Shown: positions 1 to 6,607 of the stretch, piece by piece
Layout: each line of letters opens with the position of its first letter
Position numbering within the stretch: the stretch's first letter is position 1
NCBI GenBank assembly: GCA_021795795.1
Contig: JAJYPA010000466.1
Coordinates: forward strand, 1 to 6,607
Length of the DNA stretch: 6,607 nt
From: Pseudomonadota bacterium
Lineage (GTDB): Bacteria; Pseudomonadota; Gammaproteobacteria; Halothiobacillales; Halothiobacillaceae
Direction of reading: 5' to 3'
The notes under the pieces: generated by a model
Databases searched by the model: none
What the model was told of the DNA's origin: nothing
The model's input: only the letters and a program-made list of their open reading frames with translations
Program-made: the position numbers and the translations under genes

Positions 1-426
1 CAGCGACCTGACAGGGACCAATCGCGCGAATCCAGCGTCAGCTATGTCGCCCAGAAACCAGCCTTCGGCCTCCAGTAAGGTCGGACTCTTGCCAAGATGC
101 CCGGTTGCGACACTTACGGCCCATGCAGCAACTACCATCCATGCCGCAAGCTCTATCAGATCGCGCGATTGCACATCGCCCGGCTCGACAATGCGACGCG
201 CATACAACCGACGCCAAACGGTCTCCGCCGACTTCCTGGGAGCCGACCTCGCAAGCACAGCTGCCGCATACCGCAACGGTGCGCCGTAGAATTCCGCAGC
301 CGTCGACAGCACATACCCCTTTCGTGGCACGGCCAAGTTGACAGCACCATGTGCTGCGGCAGCGCCCGCATCCAGTGCAGCCGCCACTTCGAAAATTTGG
401 TCATGTTGAGCGTACACGTCTCTCAC
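1..426 (-). CDS. Unrecognised protein, partial (C-terminus beyond window), GTG start
   Basis: This minus-strand frame stays open for 142 codons from a GTG at 426 to the left edge, so the C-terminus is missing. I chose GTG because an in-frame TGA lies two codons upstream (432-430) and a GAGGA Shine-Dalgarno sequence sits 6 bases before it. The protein begins VRDVYAQHDQIFEVAAALDA. It is rich in Ala, with Arg-rich stretches around residues 60-78 (ARSAPRKS, VWRRLYARR). A hydrophobic stretch at about 93-108 (LAAWMVVAAWAVSVAT) could be a membrane segment or a buried helix. I do not recognise a family. A short ORF resembling an RHH protein end lies 27 bases upstream on the same strand, so the two may once have formed an operon. 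A longer plus-strand reading over the same DNA is Cys/Arg/His/Ser-rich and unconvincing. The existence of this gene is inferred from the frame and ribosome site only. Confidence 0.5.
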   Translation of the reverse strand, partial: MRDVYAQHDQIFEVAAALDAGAAAAHGAVNLAVPRKGYVLSTAAEFYGAPLRYAAAVLARSAPRKSAETVWRRLYARRIVEPGDVQSRDLIELAAWMVVAAWAVSVATGHLGKSPTLLEAEGWFLGDIADAGFARLVPVRSL

Positions 427-453
427 AAATCATCCTCTGCCAGCAAGCAACGG

Positions 454-537
454 TCATTTCTCGTTGACGTACTCCTCGGCTGCATCCCGGACGATCCGAG
501 CAACAGACACTCTCTTTCTCTTGCGATTTTCGTGCGA
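454..537 (-). pseudogene. Short ORF resembling the C-terminal end of a ribbon-helix-helix (RHH) protein
   Basis: A 27-codon stretch follows an in-frame TAA (540-538) and ends at TGA (456-454). It contains RKRVSVARIVRDAAEEYVNE. The second half resembles helix 2 of CopG/Arc-type RHH DNA-binding proteins, where a Ser/Val turn is followed by an amphipathic helix of the 'LIREAIREYLE' type. There is no matching N-terminal strand or first helix upstream: the frame is blocked and IS110-derived sequence starts within about 30-50 bases. A GTG at 510 could start an 18-residue peptide after a purine-rich AAGAGAAAGAGA run, but a remnant cut off by the insertion or deletion event seems more likely. The match is by eye over only about 16 residues, so it may be chance. 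Confidence 0.3.
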
Positions 538-569
538 TTATTGAGTTCATTCGCCACCTGCGTCAAGCG

Positions 570-1050
570 CCGGCCTGGCTGGGCCGAATATCATAATGCG
601 CCGGGAGGTCGGGCAGCGGCAGTGAGGTATCTGAATCCCGTGGACACTATCGATTGGATATAATGGATCGAGGAGGATTTTAGGACGCTCTGATCTAGCC
701 ATCTGATATAAGCCCATGATCTGTTTTCTGACTGCCTCGATTTGCTTGTCGATAGCAGCAAGGATTGCTTCTATGGATGGCCTTGCCGCCAATTCTGCGG
801 CCTTCGGCCGGTTATTCTCCATGTTTTGCAGCCCAAGTAGGTCATCCAGGCGTTGGACAAGAGCTTGCAAGGTGACGATCTCGTCAGCCGGTGGTGTCCA
901 AGTCGCGGGGTGGTGCATTTGGCAGTATCGGGCAATAAGTCGAGCATCGGCCTTGTCTGTTTTGGCGCGTGTAAGCTCTGTTTTGCCAAAGGCATGGATC
1001 TGGGTGAGATTGACTACGCTCACCAAGAGTTTCTGATGAGACAGGAACCG
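570..1050 (-). pseudogene. IS110-family transposase relic, truncated at both ends and frameshifted
   Basis: Reading leftward from about 1050, the protein contains VSVVNLTQIHAFGKTELTRA followed by KTDKADARLIARYC. This is the highly typical end of the IS110 N-terminal RuvC-like DEDD domain. A helical region follows (LQALVQRLDDLLGLQNMENN and DKQIEAVRKQI). It then reaches the start of the C-terminal helix-hairpin-helix segment (LLDPLYPIDSVHGI, compare the family's LLDSIPGI). Near 631-634 the frame slips. Allowing a one-base loss, similarity continues as DTSLPLPDLPAHYDIRPSQA until about 570. The first catalytic Asp and the Glu of the DEDD set are absent, as is most of the Transposase_20-type C-terminus with its catalytic Ser. 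The only open frame would start at a GTG at 1026, which is not a natural start. The element cannot transpose by itself. IS110 elements lack clear terminal inverted repeats, so I cannot mark true ends. Confidence 0.85.
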
Positions 1051-1052
1051 CG

Positions 1053-1250
1053 CTAGGCCACGGTGAACGTGACGGCAGCGATGGCACGGGGCGGGATGCC
1101 TTGGGCGAACATGATGGCGATGGGGCCGACCATGACGGCGGTCTTGCCCGAACCCGCGTCGGCCTCGTCCAGGATCGACCGATCATGGAGGCCGATGGCG
1201 TCACGACGTGCGCCGTCACCCATAAGAGCCGTGAACATACTGCTCATCAT
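1053..1250 (-). pseudogene. UvrD/Rep-type helicase, N-terminal fragment (truncated)
   Basis: Only 65 codons remain, whereas superfamily 1 helicases of this kind usually have 600-1100 residues. The start ATG at 1250 has a GGAGG ribosome site 5 bases upstream, and a second ATG follows directly. Residues 14-29 form the usual N-terminal Q-motif region. Residues 30-37 are the Walker A loop ADAGSGKT, with Lys36 and Thr37 for ATP binding. Residues 57-63 (IAAVTFT) are motif Ia, which normally continues into EAA or KAA. Here the reading changes after TFT to Val-Ala-stop, and IS110 sequence begins within about 10 bases of that point. All later helicase motifs (II to VI) are missing, so the product cannot unwind DNA. 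The intact family acts in DNA repair, or as an AddA/RecB-like subunit next to a nuclease. The start overlaps the preceding small ORF by 4 bases, so this was the second gene of an operon. Confidence 0.8.
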
Positions 1251-1336
1251 TTCGCCTCCCAGACCTGAGCGACATCACCCAGCCGCTCGGTCGCGGCCGG
1301 CATCTTGTGTTGCGTGAATTCCAGATCAGGAGACAT
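1247..1336 (-). CDS. Small ORF (29 aa) translationally coupled to the helicase fragment; possibly a gene remnant
   Basis: The frame reads MSPDLEFTQHKMPAATERLG then DVAQVWEAK and stops at TGA 1249-1247. That stop overlaps the helicase ATG as ATGA. This close coupling, with the helicase ribosome site inside this frame, suggests it was once translated. The frame extends upstream of the ATG without interruption for 12 codons to a TGA at about 1373-1371. I see no good ribosome site for ATG 1336, so it may equally be the C-terminal scrap of a longer gene lost upstream. I recognise no family. In related loci the gene before such helicases can be a nuclease, but these 29 residues show no nuclease motif. 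Confidence 0.35.
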   Translation of the reverse strand: MSPDLEFTQHKMPAATERLGDVAQVWEAK

Positions 1337-1373
1337 GTTGGATGCGAAATTCGCAAAGGCCAGGGATCCTGAT

Positions 1374-1395
1374 CACCGTTTCGGGAAACGGGTGG
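1374..1395. repeat. Inverted repeat upstream of ietA (candidate operator)
   Basis: CCGTTTC-GG-GAAACGG at 1376-1391 is a perfect 7-base inverted repeat around a 2-base centre. Flanking CAC and GTG can extend it if one extra G is bulged on the right. No T-tract follows on either strand, so it does not look like an intrinsic terminator. It lies between the divergent minus-strand remnants and the promoter of ietA, about 45 bases before the -35 box. That position fits a binding site for a dimeric regulator, but no such role is shown. Confidence 0.4.
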
Positions 1396-1438
1396 CCGAC
1401 TTACGCATCATATTCTAAAAATTTAGCAACGATTTGTA

Positions 1439-1467
1439 TTGATATGCATCAAAATATGTACTATAAG
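1439..1467 (+). promoter_or_regulatory. Sigma70-type promoter for ietAS
   Basis: TTGATA at 1439-1444 (5 of 6 to TTGACA) is followed after 17 bases by TATAAG at 1462-1467 (5 of 6 to TATAAT). This is an optimal spacing in a locally AT-rich stretch within otherwise GC-rich DNA. Transcription would start near 1474, leaving a leader of about 35-40 bases before the ietA ATG at 1511. ATATGC (1442-1447) and GCATAT (1467-1472) form an inverted repeat spanning both boxes, so a bound repressor there would block polymerase. Confidence 0.6.
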
Positions 1468-1484
1468 CATATTTAACGCATAAC

Positions 1485-1499
1485 TGTGCAACACGCACA
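1485..1499 (+). repeat. Short inverted repeat in the ietA leader
   Basis: TGTGC-AACAC-GCACA is a perfect 5-base inverted repeat with a 5-base loop. It falls in the predicted untranslated leader, ending just before the AAGGA ribosome site. It could form a small hairpin in the mRNA or be half of a protein-binding site. The stem is short and could be chance. Confidence 0.3.
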
Positions 1500-1510
1500 A
1501 AAGGACAAAT

Positions 1511-2704
1511 ATGGATCACTTCTCAATCGTGCAAGCTCTTTGCCGTGCAGCGATAGCCGATGCGTCGCCAGCATCGCGCAAGCAGATCGAACGCTTGCGC
1601 GATGCGTTGGCCAAGGACGGGGATTCCAAGCAGTCAGCCGCACTTACCAGTATCCTGACAGCGGCGGATCGGACGAAGGAGCTTTCGCCGAGCCGTATCG
1701 AGCGTTCGAAGTCTCAGATTTCTGGCGAGGCTCTGACGCGCAACACGCCGGTTCCTGTCGATCGAGAGACGGCTGCTGCGCTGGCAGATGTGATCTTTCC
1801 GGCGGATATTCAACCGGCCGCACCACTGTTTAACGCGACGGTCAGCCAGGCCATCGGGACGATCATCGAAGAATGGGCCAATTTCGAAACCCTGTCCGAG
1901 ATCGACATCCGACCATCGAAGACCTGCCTAATCTACGGGGCGCCGGGCACGGGCAAGACGCGGCTAGCGCTGTGGATCGCTCAGCAACTCGATTTGCCCG
2001 TGGTATTGGTGAAGCTGGATGGCCTGGTGTCTTCCTTCCTAGGAACCACCGCGCGCAACATCGGCAATCTGTTCACATTCGCGAACCGGCATCGTTGCAT
2101 TCTCCTGCTCGACGAGTTCGACGCAATCGCCAAGGTCCGCGACGACCCACAAGAAGTCGGCGAGATCAAGCGTGTCGTGAACGCGCTCCTGCAGAACCTC
2201 GATATGCGGCGCGATATTGGCTTCACAATCGGGATCACTAACCATCCCAAGCTCCTCGACTCGGCTGTCTGGCGACGATTCGAGGTTCAGCTCGAAATTC
2301 CAAAACCAGACTTCGAGATGCGGAAGGCGATCGCCGCGCATTTCATGCCGCCCGTGAAAGCTCCAGACATCCATTTGCGGTTAATCGCTTGGTTCACCGA
2401 GAGTTCGACAGGGGCGGAGATCGAGTCTCTGGTGCGTACCTATAAGAAGGCTACCACCGTTCGAGAAGATGACAGGCGGGGGCTGCTGGATACATTGCGC
2501 CAGTTCGCCACGTTGAACGCGGCCCGTGTCCAAAGTGAGCGCCGCGCGCTGCTGTTCGACGATTCGAGCAATTTGTTTCGGGCTATGCGGGACGATCCGA
2601 TCCTTGGCTTCTCCATGGCAGACATTGGCGAGATTGCTGGCAAGGATAAATCAACCGTGAGCCGCCAGATCGGACGAGTGAAGGCGGGGGTGCTGAATGG
2701 CTAG
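1511..2704 (+). CDS. ietA: IetA-like AAA+ ATPase (antidote/regulatory partner of IetS)
   Basis: This is a 397-residue cytoplasmic AAA+ ATPase. After a roughly 85-residue helical N-terminus, the ATPase core shows Walker A GAPGTGKT (143-150), Walker B CILLLDEFD (196-204), sensor 1 in GITN (Asn244), an arginine-finger candidate in WRRF (Arg255/256) and a sensor-2-like STGAEIESL (299-307). The last 30 residues (about 367-390, with DIGEIAGKDKSTVSRQIGRV) look like a helix-turn-helix, suggesting DNA binding. The start ATG has AAGGA 5 bases upstream. The gene overlaps the next, a subtilisin-like protease, by 8 bases. That pairing matches ietA-ietS of Agrobacterium pTiC58, where IetA counteracts the toxic protease IetS and the pair confers plasmid stability and incompatibility. 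The same pair has been listed as an antiphage system. The identification rests on motifs and gene pairing. The DNA-binding role is my inference. The gene appears intact. Confidence 0.85.
   Translation: MDHFSIVQALCRAAIADASPASRKQIERLRDALAKDGDSKQSAALTSILTAADRTKELSPSRIERSKSQISGEALTRNTPVPVDRETAAALADVIFPADIQPAAPLFNATVSQAIGTIIEEWANFETLSEIDIRPSKTCLIYGAPGTGKTRLALWIAQQLDLPVVLVKLDGLVSSFLGTTARNIGNLFTFANRHRCILLLDEFDAIAKVRDDPQEVGEIKRVVNALLQNLDMRRDIGFTIGITNHPKLLDSAVWRRFEVQLEIPKPDFEMRKAIAAHFMPPVKAPDIHLRLIAWFTESSTGAEIESLVRTYKKATTVREDDRRGLLDTLRQFATLNAARVQSERRALLFDDSSNLFRAMRDDPILGFSMADIGEIAGKDKSTVSRQIGRVKAGVLNG
2687..2699 (+). promoter_or_regulatory. ietA/ietS translational-coupling overlap
   Basis: The ietS ATG (2697-2699) lies inside the end of ietA, whose TAG is at 2702-2704. 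The purine-rich run with GGCGGGGG just upstream can serve as the ribosome site. The 8-base overlap in different frames implies coupled translation, so ATPase and protease levels are tied to one transcript. No separate promoter for ietS is evident. Confidence 0.5.
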
Positions 2705-5204
2705 CCCGATCCAGATCGTCCTCAATCCAGAAAATTATGAAGAAGCACGAGAGGCTGGCGGCGGCGGTGGACGTAAAGACTTCTTTGCGCACCGCGATGC
2801 TGAATTTATAATTCATAAAACCGCCCTCATGAACCAACTCGATGCAATCTCCGGCGTCCTCAGCGCACAGTCGCAAGGAGACGTCGGCTTTGTGAAGGTC
2901 ATTTTACGACGAGAAGCCTGGGCTAAAAGTCATCGGCCTGTCACCAGATTGTTTCGCGACAATTATACCCCTGTCGTGGGTGGTGGCGATCTCGGCGTCA
3001 TGATTGTCGAAGCCAGTCCCAGTACGCTTCGGCAGGTCGCGGCTGAGATTGCAAGGGCTGAGACCTACACCAATATGCGGTTTAACGAAAAGAAGCAAAA
3101 AGATGAGCCATACCCGTCCGCGCAAAAGAGCGAGGCGGGCGCGATTGACAGGATCGAGCTCTATGGACCGGCAGACCGCCGGAACTTTTCAGCCGAGGAA
3201 GCCGTCGCCTGGCTTTCAAAGCCGATGACCGGCAGTAGTTATCAAGTTGAGTTATTCAAAAGCCCACCGCCGCGTTCGGAATGGGATCGCCTCGACGTAG
3301 GTCATCGTCGCCTCGTGGAGAGTTTTGTTGCGGGATTCGATGCGCTCGAACGCGGACTCGAAGTCGAGCGGCTGCCAAATCATCCGAACAAGCAGGCAAT
3401 TCTTTCCGTTCGGCTCGACCAGTCAAGCGATCAGCCCGTACTGCGGCTCAATGAAGCTCCAGTTGGAGAACGCCGCCGTGACCTGTCCTTGTTCAATCCA
3501 GACGTTAGACGGCACGCGAAACTGCTTGCATTTCTTGATAACCACCCACTCGTCCGACAGATTGAACTTCCTGGCATTGTGGTCCGGGCAGCCAGCTTAT
3601 CGGCGCAGGCTCCGCGCACCCGACCAACTGACGTGCCCATTCCAATCCGCGATAATCAACTCACTCTTCCTCGCATAGGCATCATTGATGGTGGAATCAG
3701 TAAGGTACTGTCAGACTGGGTGATTCACCGATGGGACATTCTTGCAGATGAAGATGTTGATCTTGCCCATGGCACCTTCATTGGTGGACTGACTACGGTT
3801 GGGAGTGCACTGAATGGCGCAGAAACCTGCCCGGAACCTGATGGCGCAGAATTGGTCGATATTGCCATCTTCCCCAACGACCGCAGGGCTGGGGCCTTCG
3901 CCTCTTACTATCCGGATGGTCTGCCACAGTTCTTCGACGAAATGGAATCAGCCGTCTCGGACACCCGCGCTCGGTACGGAGTGCGTGTATTCAACATGAG
4001 CCTCAATATTCTTCAGCCGGCCGCACTAGACCGATACAGCCTATATGCGGCGAGACTTGATCAGATTGCAGAGACCAATAACGCCGTTGTGTTCATTTCG
4101 GCCGGAAATACAAAACCCCAGGATTTCCGAGTCGAGTGGCCTGCCAACGCTGCCGCAGCGCTCGCCGGCATCGCTAACGCCCGCAACGATGGTTTGCTGA
4201 CCCCCGCTGAAAGTGCACGCAATGTCACCGTTGCTGCGCTTAATCCACCCGGGCATAACGGCTGCCTGCCCTTTGCACCCACTCGTTTCAGTCGCCGGGG
4301 ACCCGGCCTGCGCGCGGGAGTTAAGCCAGACTTGGCTCATGTCGGCGGCGCGGGCTCACCGGATCCGATGCTCGGACACGGACTATTCTCAATCCTGCCC
4401 GACGGAAAGATTATCGATGGTTGCGGCACGAGCTACGCCTCTCCGCTTGTCGCTAAAACCGCCGCTGTGCTCGACCATGCCATCGAAGGAGAGGTCTCGC
4501 GTGAGACCCTGATTGGTTTGCTTGTTCACCACGCGGAAATACCAGTGCCATTGCAGGCAAGGCTGCTTGCACCTATTGCGCGCAACATGGTCGGCTTCGG
4601 AATGCCACCTCCCGCCGATCGAATTCTGGAGACCGGCGATCATGCGATTACGCTCGTTTTCGCATCGCGCATTAGGCGTGGTCAGCAGATCAACTTCCGC
4701 TTTGCGTGGCCCGCATCTCTAGTGGGATCAGGCGGAAAGTGCCGAGGTCGAGCGAAGATCACACTGATCTCCACACCACCGCTGGATGCCCGATTTGGTG
4801 CGGAGTTCGTCCGTGTGAATATCAATGCCACTTTGCAACAAGAACAGCAGGACGGTAAATGGTTGGGGCGGCTTGAGCCGACCTATCTTCCTGCGAGGCG
4901 GGAAGTACCTGCCGTCGAAGCTGAACTGATCGAGCACGATCTGAAGTGGAGTCCCGTTAAAGTTCTCGCCAAGACCTTCCCGCAGGGTGTCGGCCCATCT
5001 TCGAACTGGCGGCTGTTTATCGATTATCTGACCCGAGCCGGCGAAGTTATGCCCGAGGAAGGTGTACCGTTCACGGCCATCGTCACCATCAGCGACCCCG
5101 ACGCCGAGCAGCCGGTGTTCAACGATATGCGCCAAAACCTCCAGGCCCTCGGCACACAGATCGCTGATATTCGAACCGCCGCGCGGATTACGCCACGCGT
5201 TTGA
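2697..5204 (+). CDS. ietS: IetS-like subtilisin-family (S8) serine protease
   Basis: This is an 835-residue protease. The S8 core lies at about 320-625 with the full catalytic set. The Asp box is LPRIGIIDGGIS (Asp331), the His box is DLAHGTFIGG (His358), the oxyanion Asn is in VVFISAGNT (Asn471), and the Ser box is GCGTSYASPLVA (Ser579). There is no signal peptide or membrane segment, so it should act inside the cell, unlike most subtilisins. An N-terminal region of about 300 residues, with a Gly run at 21-25, and a C-terminal region of about 200 residues flank the core. I recognise no named domain in either; they may regulate activity or bind partners. In pTiC58 the homologous IetS is the toxic component, and IetA, encoded just upstream and overlapping by 8 bases, restrains it. 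No disruption is visible, so the protease is probably active. Its substrate is unknown. Confidence 0.88.
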   Translation: MASPIQIVLNPENYEEAREAGGGGGRKDFFAHRDAEFIIHKTALMNQLDAISGVLSAQSQGDVGFVKVILRREAWAKSHRPVTRLFRDNYTPVVGGGDLGVMIVEASPSTLRQVAAEIARAETYTNMRFNEKKQKDEPYPSAQKSEAGAIDRIELYGPADRRNFSAEEAVAWLSKPMTGSSYQVELFKSPPPRSEWDRLDVGHRRLVESFVAGFDALERGLEVERLPNHPNKQAILSVRLDQSSDQPVLRLNEAPVGERRRDLSLFNPDVRRHAKLLAFLDNHPLVRQIELPGIVVRAASLSAQAPRTRPTDVPIPIRDNQLTLPRIGIIDGGISKVLSDWVIHRWDILADEDVDLAHGTFIGGLTTVGSALNGAETCPEPDGAELVDIAIFPNDRRAGAFASYYPDGLPQFFDEMESAVSDTRARYGVRVFNMSLNILQPAALDRYSLYAARLDQIAETNNAVVFISAGNTKPQDFRVEWPANAAAALAGIANARNDGLLTPAESARNVTVAALNPPGHNGCLPFAPTRFSRRGPGLRAGVKPDLAHVGGAGSPDPMLGHGLFSILPDGKIIDGCGTSYASPLVAKTAAVLDHAIEGEVSRETLIGLLVHHAEIPVPLQARLLAPIARNMVGFGMPPPADRILETGDHAITLVFASRIRRGQQINFRFAWPASLVGSGGKCRGRAKITLISTPPLDARFGAEFVRVNINATLQQEQQDGKWLGRLEPTYLPARREVPAVEAELIEHDLKWSPVKVLAKTFPQGVGPSSNWRLFIDYLTRAGEVMPEEGVPFTAIVTISDPDAEQPVFNDMRQNLQALGTQIADIRTAARITPRV

Positions 5205-5302
5205 TCTTGCATCATGGCCGCTTTGATCAAGCTCTCTTGTGCGGTAGCAATCACTGAGCGGTCAGTTAGCACGAGGGAGTTTCCAGAGAGGTCTCCAAGA
5301 GC
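5205..5302. other. Intergenic region between ietS and the thymidylate synthase homologue
   Basis: These 98 bases hold no convincing gene or intrinsic terminator. A TTGATCAA palindrome (5223-5230) is present. GAGAGG at 5286-5291 is 11 bases from the next ATG, so the ribosome site of the downstream gene is weak. A promoter is expected here if the two modules are separate, but I find no strong pair of boxes. Confidence 0.4.
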
Positions 5303-6268
5303 ATGATAGAAAAAACAAACTACGAAGCCCCGACATTAGACGACCTAATGATGGAAGTCTTGAAGCCTCTATTGGAAGACCGCGATTTTGTCACCGCTAC
5401 GAGATCAAGCGATCTAGGGAATTTTACTGAGATACTTGGCGCTTCCCTGGTGTTATCGAATCCACGCGCCCGCTTAAGCAGGAGCGAAAGTAAAGGAAAG
5501 GTATTTAGCGCACTGGGTGAATTCCTCTGGTACATGTCTGGAACGAATACCCTAAGTTTTATCGATTATTATATACCCGGCGTTTATTCCAAAGAATCGG
5601 AAGATGGCGTTACAGTGAACAGCGGTTATGGCGACCGCTTGTTTAAACGTTTCGGAGTGGATCAAATTGTGGGAGTCATTAATAAGTTAAAAACCCGTCC
5701 TACATCACGCCAAGCCGTCATTCAAATTTTCTCTGCATCTGACCTCCAGCAAAAATTTGTTCCCTGCACCTGCACGCTGCAATTCATTCTACGCGATGAA
5801 CGACTTAATCTACTGGTTAACATGAGGTCAAACGACGCCTTCTTGGGTCTTCCACATGACGTATTTGCGTTCACCATGATCCAAGAGCTGGCTGCACGTA
5901 GCCTGAACGTAGAAATTGGAATCTATAAGCACTTTGTCGGAAGTCTGCATTTATATCAGAAACACCATGATAAAGCCAAAGCATACTTGTGTGAGGGTTG
6001 GCAGAATGAAATCGCTATGGATCCCATGCCGATCGGCGACCAATGGCCAGCGTTGAAAGTTGTACAAGATGTAGAGCGACAAATTAGAGAAGATGGCACA
6101 ATTAATTTTGTCGGGGCTGACATCCATGACTACTGGCATGACGTGTGCGTAATGCTTGCTATTTGGAAGCGGATAAAGGAACATAATTTTGGGGAATGTG
6201 AAAAACTAAAGGGCGATTTAAAGAACGCGTTCTACAATGTTTTTGTTGATGGCAAGATGCCATACTGA
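5303..6268 (+). CDS. Thymidylate-synthase-family protein, likely deoxypyrimidine (dCMP-type) hydroxymethylase
   Basis: This 321-residue protein carries the thymidylate synthase fold signature. EFLWYMSGTN holds Glu73, equivalent to E. coli Glu58. SRQAVIQIF holds phosphate-binding Arg136. The nucleophile Cys155 is in VPCTCTLQF. NMRSNDAFLGLPHDVF spans 173-188, and SLHLY holds His216 and Tyr218. Compared with E. coli ThyA (RSCDVFLGLPFN), the Asn177 that recognises the uracil ring is Asp186 here. In phage T4 dCMP hydroxymethylase the equivalent is Asp179, and Asn-to-Asp favours cytosine nucleotides in this family. The His after the catalytic Cys is replaced by Thr156. The protein is longer than the usual 264 residues and lacks the canonical C-terminus. 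I infer a folate-dependent enzyme making 5-hydroxymethyl (or methyl) pyrimidine nucleotide rather than the housekeeping ThyA. The next gene, also linked to modified pyrimidines, starts 16 bases downstream. The coding sequence is more AT-rich than ietAS, suggesting separate acquisition. Confidence 0.8.
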   Translation: MIEKTNYEAPTLDDLMMEVLKPLLEDRDFVTATRSSDLGNFTEILGASLVLSNPRARLSRSESKGKVFSALGEFLWYMSGTNTLSFIDYYIPGVYSKESEDGVTVNSGYGDRLFKRFGVDQIVGVINKLKTRPTSRQAVIQIFSASDLQQKFVPCTCTLQFILRDERLNLLVNMRSNDAFLGLPHDVFAFTMIQELAARSLNVEIGIYKHFVGSLHLYQKHHDKAKAYLCEGWQNEIAMDPMPIGDQWPALKVVQDVERQIREDGTINFVGADIHDYWHDVCVMLAIWKRIKEHNFGECEKLKGDLKNAFYNVFVDGKMPY

Positions 6269-6271
6269 GAA

Positions 6272-6277
6272 GAAGGG
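6272..6277 (+). promoter_or_regulatory. Ribosome binding site deciding the start of the last gene
   Basis: GAAGGG lies 7 bases before ATG 6285 and 4 bases after the TGA of the upstream gene. This supports ATG 6285 as the true start and co-translation from one mRNA. Confidence 0.6.
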
Positions 6278-6284
6278 CAACTTT

Positions 6285-6607
6285 ATGGCAATACCTAGAC
6301 ACAATGCTCAAGATATGGACCGAATTAGTGTGGCTCTTGCAGAATTTGAACAGAAGCATTATCCATTGCCAGGCATAACAGCACCACTGGATCGATGGGT
6401 TTTCATCAAGCAGCTAATCGATAGCACCCGGCGAGTCAAATTTGTTAGGGAGATGGCGTCTAGGCCGATAAGTCCCCGAAGGATGGATCCAAATGACGAT
6501 ATTTTTGACCCTATACGCGCCGCCCTGCTACACAAGGACGCGCAAAACTTTGACGAAGCATGCTGGTTGATTTTTCTATTCACGCACTTTGGCAAACATC
6601 CCAATTC
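6285..6607 (+). CDS. Alpha-glutamyl/putrescinyl thymine pyrophosphorylase clade 3-like protein, partial (C-terminus beyond window)
   Basis: The frame is open from ATG 6285 to the window end (107 codons plus 2 bases) and has a good GAAGGG ribosome site. It begins MAIPRHNAQDMDRISVALAE. Recognisable conserved stretches are LDRWVFIKQLIDSTRRVKFV (35-54), PISPRRMDPNDDIFDPIRAA (61-80), and WLIFLFTHFGKHPN (94-107). These resemble the bacterial family annotated as alpha-glutamyl/putrescinyl thymine pyrophosphorylase clade 3, defined computationally from phage base-hypermodification systems. For phage relatives, later work assigned an amino-acid-to-DNA transfer role on activated hydroxymethyl pyrimidines. 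I name it from memory of these motifs and cannot run a search. The gene follows a probable hydroxymethylase by 16 bases, which independently fits a base-modification pathway. Its catalytic C-terminal part is not visible. Confidence 0.6.
   Translation, partial: MAIPRHNAQDMDRISVALAEFEQKHYPLPGITAPLDRWVFIKQLIDSTRRVKFVREMASRPISPRRMDPNDDIFDPIRAALLHKDAQNFDEACWLIFLFTHFGKHPN

Follow-up and report, generated by a model that had tools for sequence, protein, structure and literature searches.

Most of what is known of hypermodified pyrimidines comes from phage genomes, and the question raised by this locus is what genes resembling those of the phage pathways might do in a bacterium. The stretch analysed here, which we call the window, comprises 6,607 nucleotides of a Pseudomonadota genome of the family Halothiobacillaceae (assembly GCA_021795795.1, contig JAJYPA010000466.1, positions 1 to 6,607), and its right-hand end carries two genes on the + strand. 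The initial annotation described them as a thymidylate synthase (TS) homologue with hydroxymethylase-like changes followed after 16 bases by a gene resembling aGPT-Pplase clade 3, and took them for the start of a pyrimidine modification operon. Profile searches place both genes in the families expected and the last one in no unrelated family. The TS homologue (5303..6268, 321 amino acids) matches PF00303 at 2.1e-26 (93.1 bits, cut-off 24.3). The second gene is truncated by the window edge after 107 codons (6285..6607), and this part matches PF18746, aGPT-Pplase3, at 9.1e-22 (78.2 bits, cut-off 25) and PF18724, ADDT, at 2.3e-8 (34.5 bits, cut-off 26.2). The 16-base gap spans 6269-6284, with a purine-rich stretch before the ATG at 6285, and this start matches that of the closest relative, locus L008. 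A further ATG in the same frame, at 6237 within the TS gene, was judged not to be the aGPT start, in agreement with L008. In our tentative reading, which we hold to be close to but short of evenly balanced, the window ends with the left-hand portion of a mobile, defence-type cassette by which bacteria modify cytosine.

Which base the system acts on can be approached through the first enzyme. A TS family profile made from the window protein and 31 relatives was searched against the PDB, and its best match was the cytidine monophosphate (CMP) 5-hydroxymethylase MilA with 214 bits, against 97 bits for the best true TS, which agrees with the hydroxymethylase-like character noted initially; T4 gp42 was absent among the 60 best PDB matches listed. 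Residues were counted in an alignment of the window protein with those of 100 related loci (101 sequences). The catalytic Cys155, equivalent to MilA Cys155 (codon 5765..5767, +), Ser176 (5828..5830, +) and Asp186, at the position of Asn177 in E. coli TS (5858..5860, +), are each found in 101/101 sequences. Arg136, at the position of MilA 133 (5708..5710, +), is found in 98/101 including the window, with Lys in L004, L063 and L069. The position of E. coli TS 147, where E. coli has His, holds Thr in 101/101. In the portions of the MilA work available to us, Asp186 goes with cytosine, Ser176 plus Arg133 with deoxyribose, and Ala plus Lys with ribose (PMC5175136). A second source, likewise available in part, names E. 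coli TS positions 147 and 177 as the two at which contigs with modified cytosine depart most from those lacking it, the former having Asp177 (PMC8670742). Because the family profile lies nearest to MilA and the protein combines the cytosine-type Asp186 with the deoxyribose-type Ser176 and Arg136, the first gene is best read as a predicted deoxycytidine monophosphate (dCMP) 5-hydroxymethylase, with C and not T as the base. Kinship with MilA is the one feature that favours hydroxymethyl rather than methyl as the group likely to be added. A canonical TS was considered and rejected, as the Asn177 that serves deoxyuridine monophosphate (dUMP) is replaced by Asp in all 101 sequences and the scores lie below the NCBIfam equivalog cut-offs.

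The genes expected past position 6607 can be sought in related genomes. Our 100 TS loci consist of the best 80 of 188 confirmed bacterial-genome loci, 14 loci on contigs that IMG/VR calls viral and six plasmid loci. They were chosen by TS likeness and some are copies of each other, so that counts lean upward; identical TS sequences occur in L053/L091 (a chromosome contig and a viral-called contig), L088/L089 (two viral contigs) and L030/L031 (two Dyadobacter species). Such contig pairs suggest that some of the 'viral' cassette copies probably belong to prophages or islands. Seven bacterial phyla of the tree have loci with the TS-aGPT pair and a Spirochaetota plasmid adds an eighth, and since the pair recurs across these phyla the match is not due to chance. 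The initial view of an operon that starts here in a bacterial setting stands, and further genes do follow in the relatives. An aGPT gene and a HigA-ImmA gene are both found near TS in 89/100 loci, the HigA-ImmA gene being convergent with the TS-aGPT operon in 87 and on the same strand in L032 and L063. Among the 11 loci without the full set, seven end at or soon after their last gene, judged by locus length (L016, L018, L030, L031, L054, L072, L092), L022 has an odd aGPT frame with ImmA undetected, and the cassette is absent from three distant viral-contig copies, L099-L101. The aGPT gene is carried by 11 of the 14 loci on IMG/VR-called viral contigs. The most common gene order is TS, aGPT, ImmA (53/100), followed by TS, UDG-like, aGPT, ImmA (27/100), where UDG stands for uracil-DNA glycosylase. 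A protein with this fold, as assigned from a model of the relatives' protein, is encoded in 41/100 loci. The missing genes had been guessed to be a kinase, glycosylase, transferase or nuclease; the UDG-fold gene of the relatives agrees with the guess of a glycosylase, the constant partner is a toxin-antitoxin-like (TA) pair of HigB-like and HigA-ImmA proteins rather than a kinase or nuclease, and the kinase of the phage pathway was not found, as described below.

The second gene supports the comparison with phage chemistry up to a point. The full-length L008 relative (L008:8975-9919) matches PF18746 at 1.9e-103 (346 bits), and a C-terminal E-D-x-x-C-N-W-x-K family stretch, which in the window falls past the edge, is present in 90/94 loci. 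Clade 3 also matches phage DNA transferases at the profile level (probability 93.8, E 1.8e-7, 148 columns). The family comprises 2,309 clustered proteins at E <= 0.001. In the Leptospira interrogans plasmid p1 copy (L001:9795-10728) the aGPT gene is split into two reading frames. In phage phiW-14, according to the part of the study available to us, the modified base is made from 5-hydroxymethyl-U in DNA via a pyrophosphoryl intermediate (PMC5977210). A tblastn search of 50,697 phage records with the aGPT protein from L008 gave no match. The 5-hmdU DNA kinase PF18748 was found in 0/49 genomes of TS loci (other than the window's own, and including drafts that may be incomplete), with the M6 phage control positive. 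For these two reasons we do not regard the cassette as a phage thymine hypermodification pathway moved to bacteria, and Asp186, which is not of the dUMP type, belongs to the same rejection. The pyrimidine pathway that was initially drawn by phage analogy thus keeps its aGPT-Pplase/ADDT kinship and loses its thymine, as the substrate signature is that of dCMP (Asp186, Ser176, Arg136) and not that of dUMP or thymine. Another possibility is that the cassette acts as a nucleotide sink. Hydroxymethyl-dCMP would then be made and its base split off by aGPT clade 3, the UDG-fold protein or both, and deoxycytidine nucleotides would be drained when the TA pair is triggered, starving phage replication. 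We think this unlikely, because profile comparison relates clade 3 to phage DNA transferases, the Asp position of glycosylases is not conserved and MilB has a different fold.

The purpose of the cassette is best approached through its constant partner. Where the locus extends far enough, ImmA is immediately preceded on its own strand by a short HigB-like gene (87/88 loci, the miss being L038), and the HExxH motif is present in 88/89 HigA-ImmA proteins of the relatives. The HigA-ImmA protein of L008 has PD-Lambda-2_B as its best PADLOC match (8.2e-26). The HigB-like proteins matched no toxin family in PADLOC (eight proteins) or Pfam (four proteins); every other part of the cassette fits a known family or fold. 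Sixteen other plasmid records carry a HigA-ImmA protein, of which we inspected six. Its neighbours there are a type I restriction set with a Fic gene, an hsdS gene, a ubiquitin-like set and a set like CBASS (cyclic oligonucleotide-based antiphage signalling system), one each, and in the remaining two no recognised immune genes stand alongside. In the CBASS-like case, a Methylorubrum extorquens CM4 plasmid (L109), the set (TIR, E2, cyclase) comes with an S8 peptidase gene and adjoins the ImmA-type gene. Since relatives of HigA-ImmA adjoin restriction and CBASS-like sets elsewhere, the modification operon occupies a place that is held elsewhere by immune systems. The constancy of the HigB-like/HigA-ImmA partner points to defence or addiction, and the joining of a TA-like pair to the cassette in related genomes suggests an antiviral defence role. 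RosmerTA antitoxins of the ImmA type are described as phage-defence proteins in the passages available to us (PMC10440598).

Addiction would be the role of the TA pair if the cassette had nothing to do with defence. It could serve plasmids, prophages and islands as an anti-restriction or fitness cassette, or be a small pathway to a nucleoside product like that of mildiomycin, and in either case the TA pair would keep it in place. Copies on plasmids and viral-called contigs, nearest neighbours that give no clear defence-island signal, and the antibiotic-pathway enzyme MilA as closest solved relative would all fit this idea. However, the selecting residues are those for deoxyribose and differ from the ones in MilA, no export or tailoring gene is recurrent beside the cassette, and other HigA-ImmA relatives adjoin the immune sets mentioned above. 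Together these observations make a non-defence role quite improbable in our judgement.

The UDG-fold gene divides the cassettes into subtypes. In a maximum-likelihood tree of 97 TS proteins, whose bootstrap was not fully settled, the window TS groups with L008 at 100/100 within a clade of ten at 100/96, and all nine clade-mates of the window carry the UDG-like gene. Over the whole TS tree parsimony has this gene gained or lost at least 13 times. L008 has the order TS-aGPT with a short gap, XRE gene, DUF4031 gene, UDG-like gene, HigA-ImmA and HigB-like gene. We therefore predict that a similar order probably continues beyond position 6607, genes 3 to 5 of the cassette being inferred for the window. 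The UDG-fold protein of the cassette has a G-[LI]-N-P-S motif, which we take to resemble the GINPG of TDG/MUG. This gene could also belong to a weapon that inserts and excises, in which infection would lead to 5-hydroxymethylcytosine (5hmC) entering new DNA, the UDG-fold and aGPT proteins would cut the base out and abasic sites would block phage replication. The fold and motif of the cassette protein would suit such a role, and in the portions of two reports available to us the UDG-superfamily proteins Brig1 and Brig3 defend by excising alpha-glucosyl-hydroxymethylcytosine or 5hmC from phage DNA (PMC11078745, PMC13160076). It seems improbable nevertheless, as a target base made in the cell itself means self-harm unless the system is tightly switched, and the gene is present in only 41/100 loci.

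A mechanism for the cytosine-modification cassette can be proposed as follows. Gene 1 would hydroxymethylate dCMP to 5-hydroxymethyl-dCMP, the step for which the sequence support is good, and host kinases may then phosphorylate this product, which would enter DNA as 5hmC. From its kinship with phage amino acid:DNA transferases and the motifs that it shares with them, gene 2 might replace or decorate the hydroxymethyl of cytosine with an amine-bearing group. In the window's subtype the UDG-fold protein would probably remove wrongly modified cytosines, either as proofreading or as an attack on invading DNA. Pairs like that of the HigB-like and HigA-ImmA proteins also accompany other immune systems, and here the pair might guard or switch the cassette. 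Taken further, this would give an immune cassette without a restriction nuclease, in which the cell hydroxymethylates its own dCMP, clade 3 decorates the base or releases it, the UDG-fold protein excises one of the states, and, when a phage upsets the balance, the HigB/HigA-protease pair kills the cell or makes it stall. We consider this possible, if on the whole doubtful.

Several observations weigh against the cassette being a defence system of this kind. Among the 135 nearest flanking proteins 71 PADLOC models were matched, each in one member, which in a comparison made with no control amounts to no clear defence-island signal. No nuclease or other discriminator of self and non-self is recurrent in most loci, and in 59/100 there is no UDG-fold gene near TS. 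The phage route needs a DNA kinase to provide the pyrophosphate leaving group, for which PF18748 was sought in vain (0/49), and PF18723 is found in 2/49 TS-locus genomes, in one of them more than 2 Mb from the cassette. The single unlinked aGPT gene that we met (L128) has no hydroxymethylase in the 8.5 kb read. Either partner of the TA-like pair could be the toxin. In PD-lambda-2, where the first gene is HigB-like, the HigA-peptidase protein was toxic and the HigB-like one rescued, according to the part of that study available to us (PMC9519451).

The remainder of the window holds a neighbour of the cassette that was not named in the initial annotation. Directly upstream of the TS gene lies the known anti-phage system IetAS, outside the cassette, with the IetA ATPase at 1511..2704 (+; PADLOC PDLC02195, 5.8e-155) and the subtilisin-like protease IetS at 2697..5204 (+; PDLC02199, 3.6e-293; PF00082, 7.6e-15). 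Their G+C is 0.58 and 0.57, compared with 0.44 for TS and 0.47 for the aGPT part, and because of this step IetAS and the cassette were probably acquired separately. Left of IetAS there is an IS110-type transposase fragment (547-1026, -; PF01548, 5.5e-9), and the left 1.4 kb resembles a worn-out insertion region. It also contains a frame running off the left edge (1-426, -) with a borderline ubiquinol-cytochrome c chaperone match (20.0 bits, cut-off 21.5) and a short frame (1053-1250, -) in which inspection by eye suggests the Walker A region of a UvrD/AddA-type helicase. The families found are consistent with the absence of phage structural genes remarked on initially. In the relatives, 32 loci encode a small DUF4031 protein near TS (for example at L008:10525-10827 and L068:7588-7977), and its gene often immediately precedes TS in the same orientation. 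A short gene, Nudix-hydrolase-like by eye, lies just upstream of TS, at a median of 327 bases before its start, in L053 (7662-7964), L015, L023, L060, L061 and L091; its product could be a candidate for cleansing modified deoxynucleoside triphosphates. An Mrr-type restriction endonuclease gene is found within about 5 kb of TS in nine loci, with PF04471 confirming the one tested (L052:6709-7440), and an ABC-ATPase family, FtsE-like by eye, lies about 5.6 kb away in five loci.

The cassette is apparently widespread and undescribed in the literature that we searched, where we did not meet its gene combination, its cytosine type or its TA partner. If our reading is true, bacteria use phage-like pyrimidine chemistry, most likely against phages, with a hydroxymethylase, a transferase-like enzyme and often an enzyme of base-excision fold locked to a TA-like pair. 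The aGPT clade 3 family, whose name derives from a reaction on thymine that is probably not its own, would gain a testable function.

Each part of the cassette can be set beside a known system. T4 gp42 is encoded by a phage and works in a phage pathway that has a kinase and glucosyltransferases of its own, and the profile of the window's family lies nearer to MilA than to it. In predicted substrate and product the first enzyme is nonetheless like gp42, whose three selecting sites hold Asp, Ser and Arg according to the portions available (PMC5175136). With MilA of mildiomycin biosynthesis (PDB 5jnh, 5b6d) it shares the Cys, Glu, Asp186, His and Tyr of the active site; it differs in having deoxyribose-type Ser176 and Arg136 where Ala176 and Lys133 give MilA its CMP preference. 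The second gene is related through PF18724 to the amino acid:DNA transferases and aGPT-Pplases of phages M6 (gp51), ViI and phiW-14. In contrast to those, clade 3 is unmatched in phage records and is preceded by a cytosine-type enzyme, and in M6 a gene for a 5-hmdU DNA kinase lies close by, a kinase that was not found in the 49 TS-locus genomes. Brig1 and Brig3 share the uracil-DNA-glycosylase superfamily fold and the modified-cytosine setting with the cassette protein; in the Brig papers, so far as they were available, neither was met beside a hydroxymethylase. The accessible text of DefensePredictor (Science 2026; PMC13092281) lists a TS domain and a 5-hydroxymethyluracil kinase among its validated new defence domains and aGPT-Pplase among its predicted ones, whereas TS, aGPT-Pplase, UDG and HigA-ImmA in one cassette were not met in that accessible text. 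The closest likeness for the partner genes is that to PD-lambda-2 and RosmerTA, in which, as far as their descriptions were available, a HigB-like gene also precedes a HigA-type helix-turn-helix fused to an ImmA peptidase, but in the cassette this pair stands against a base-modification operon, mostly in convergent orientation.
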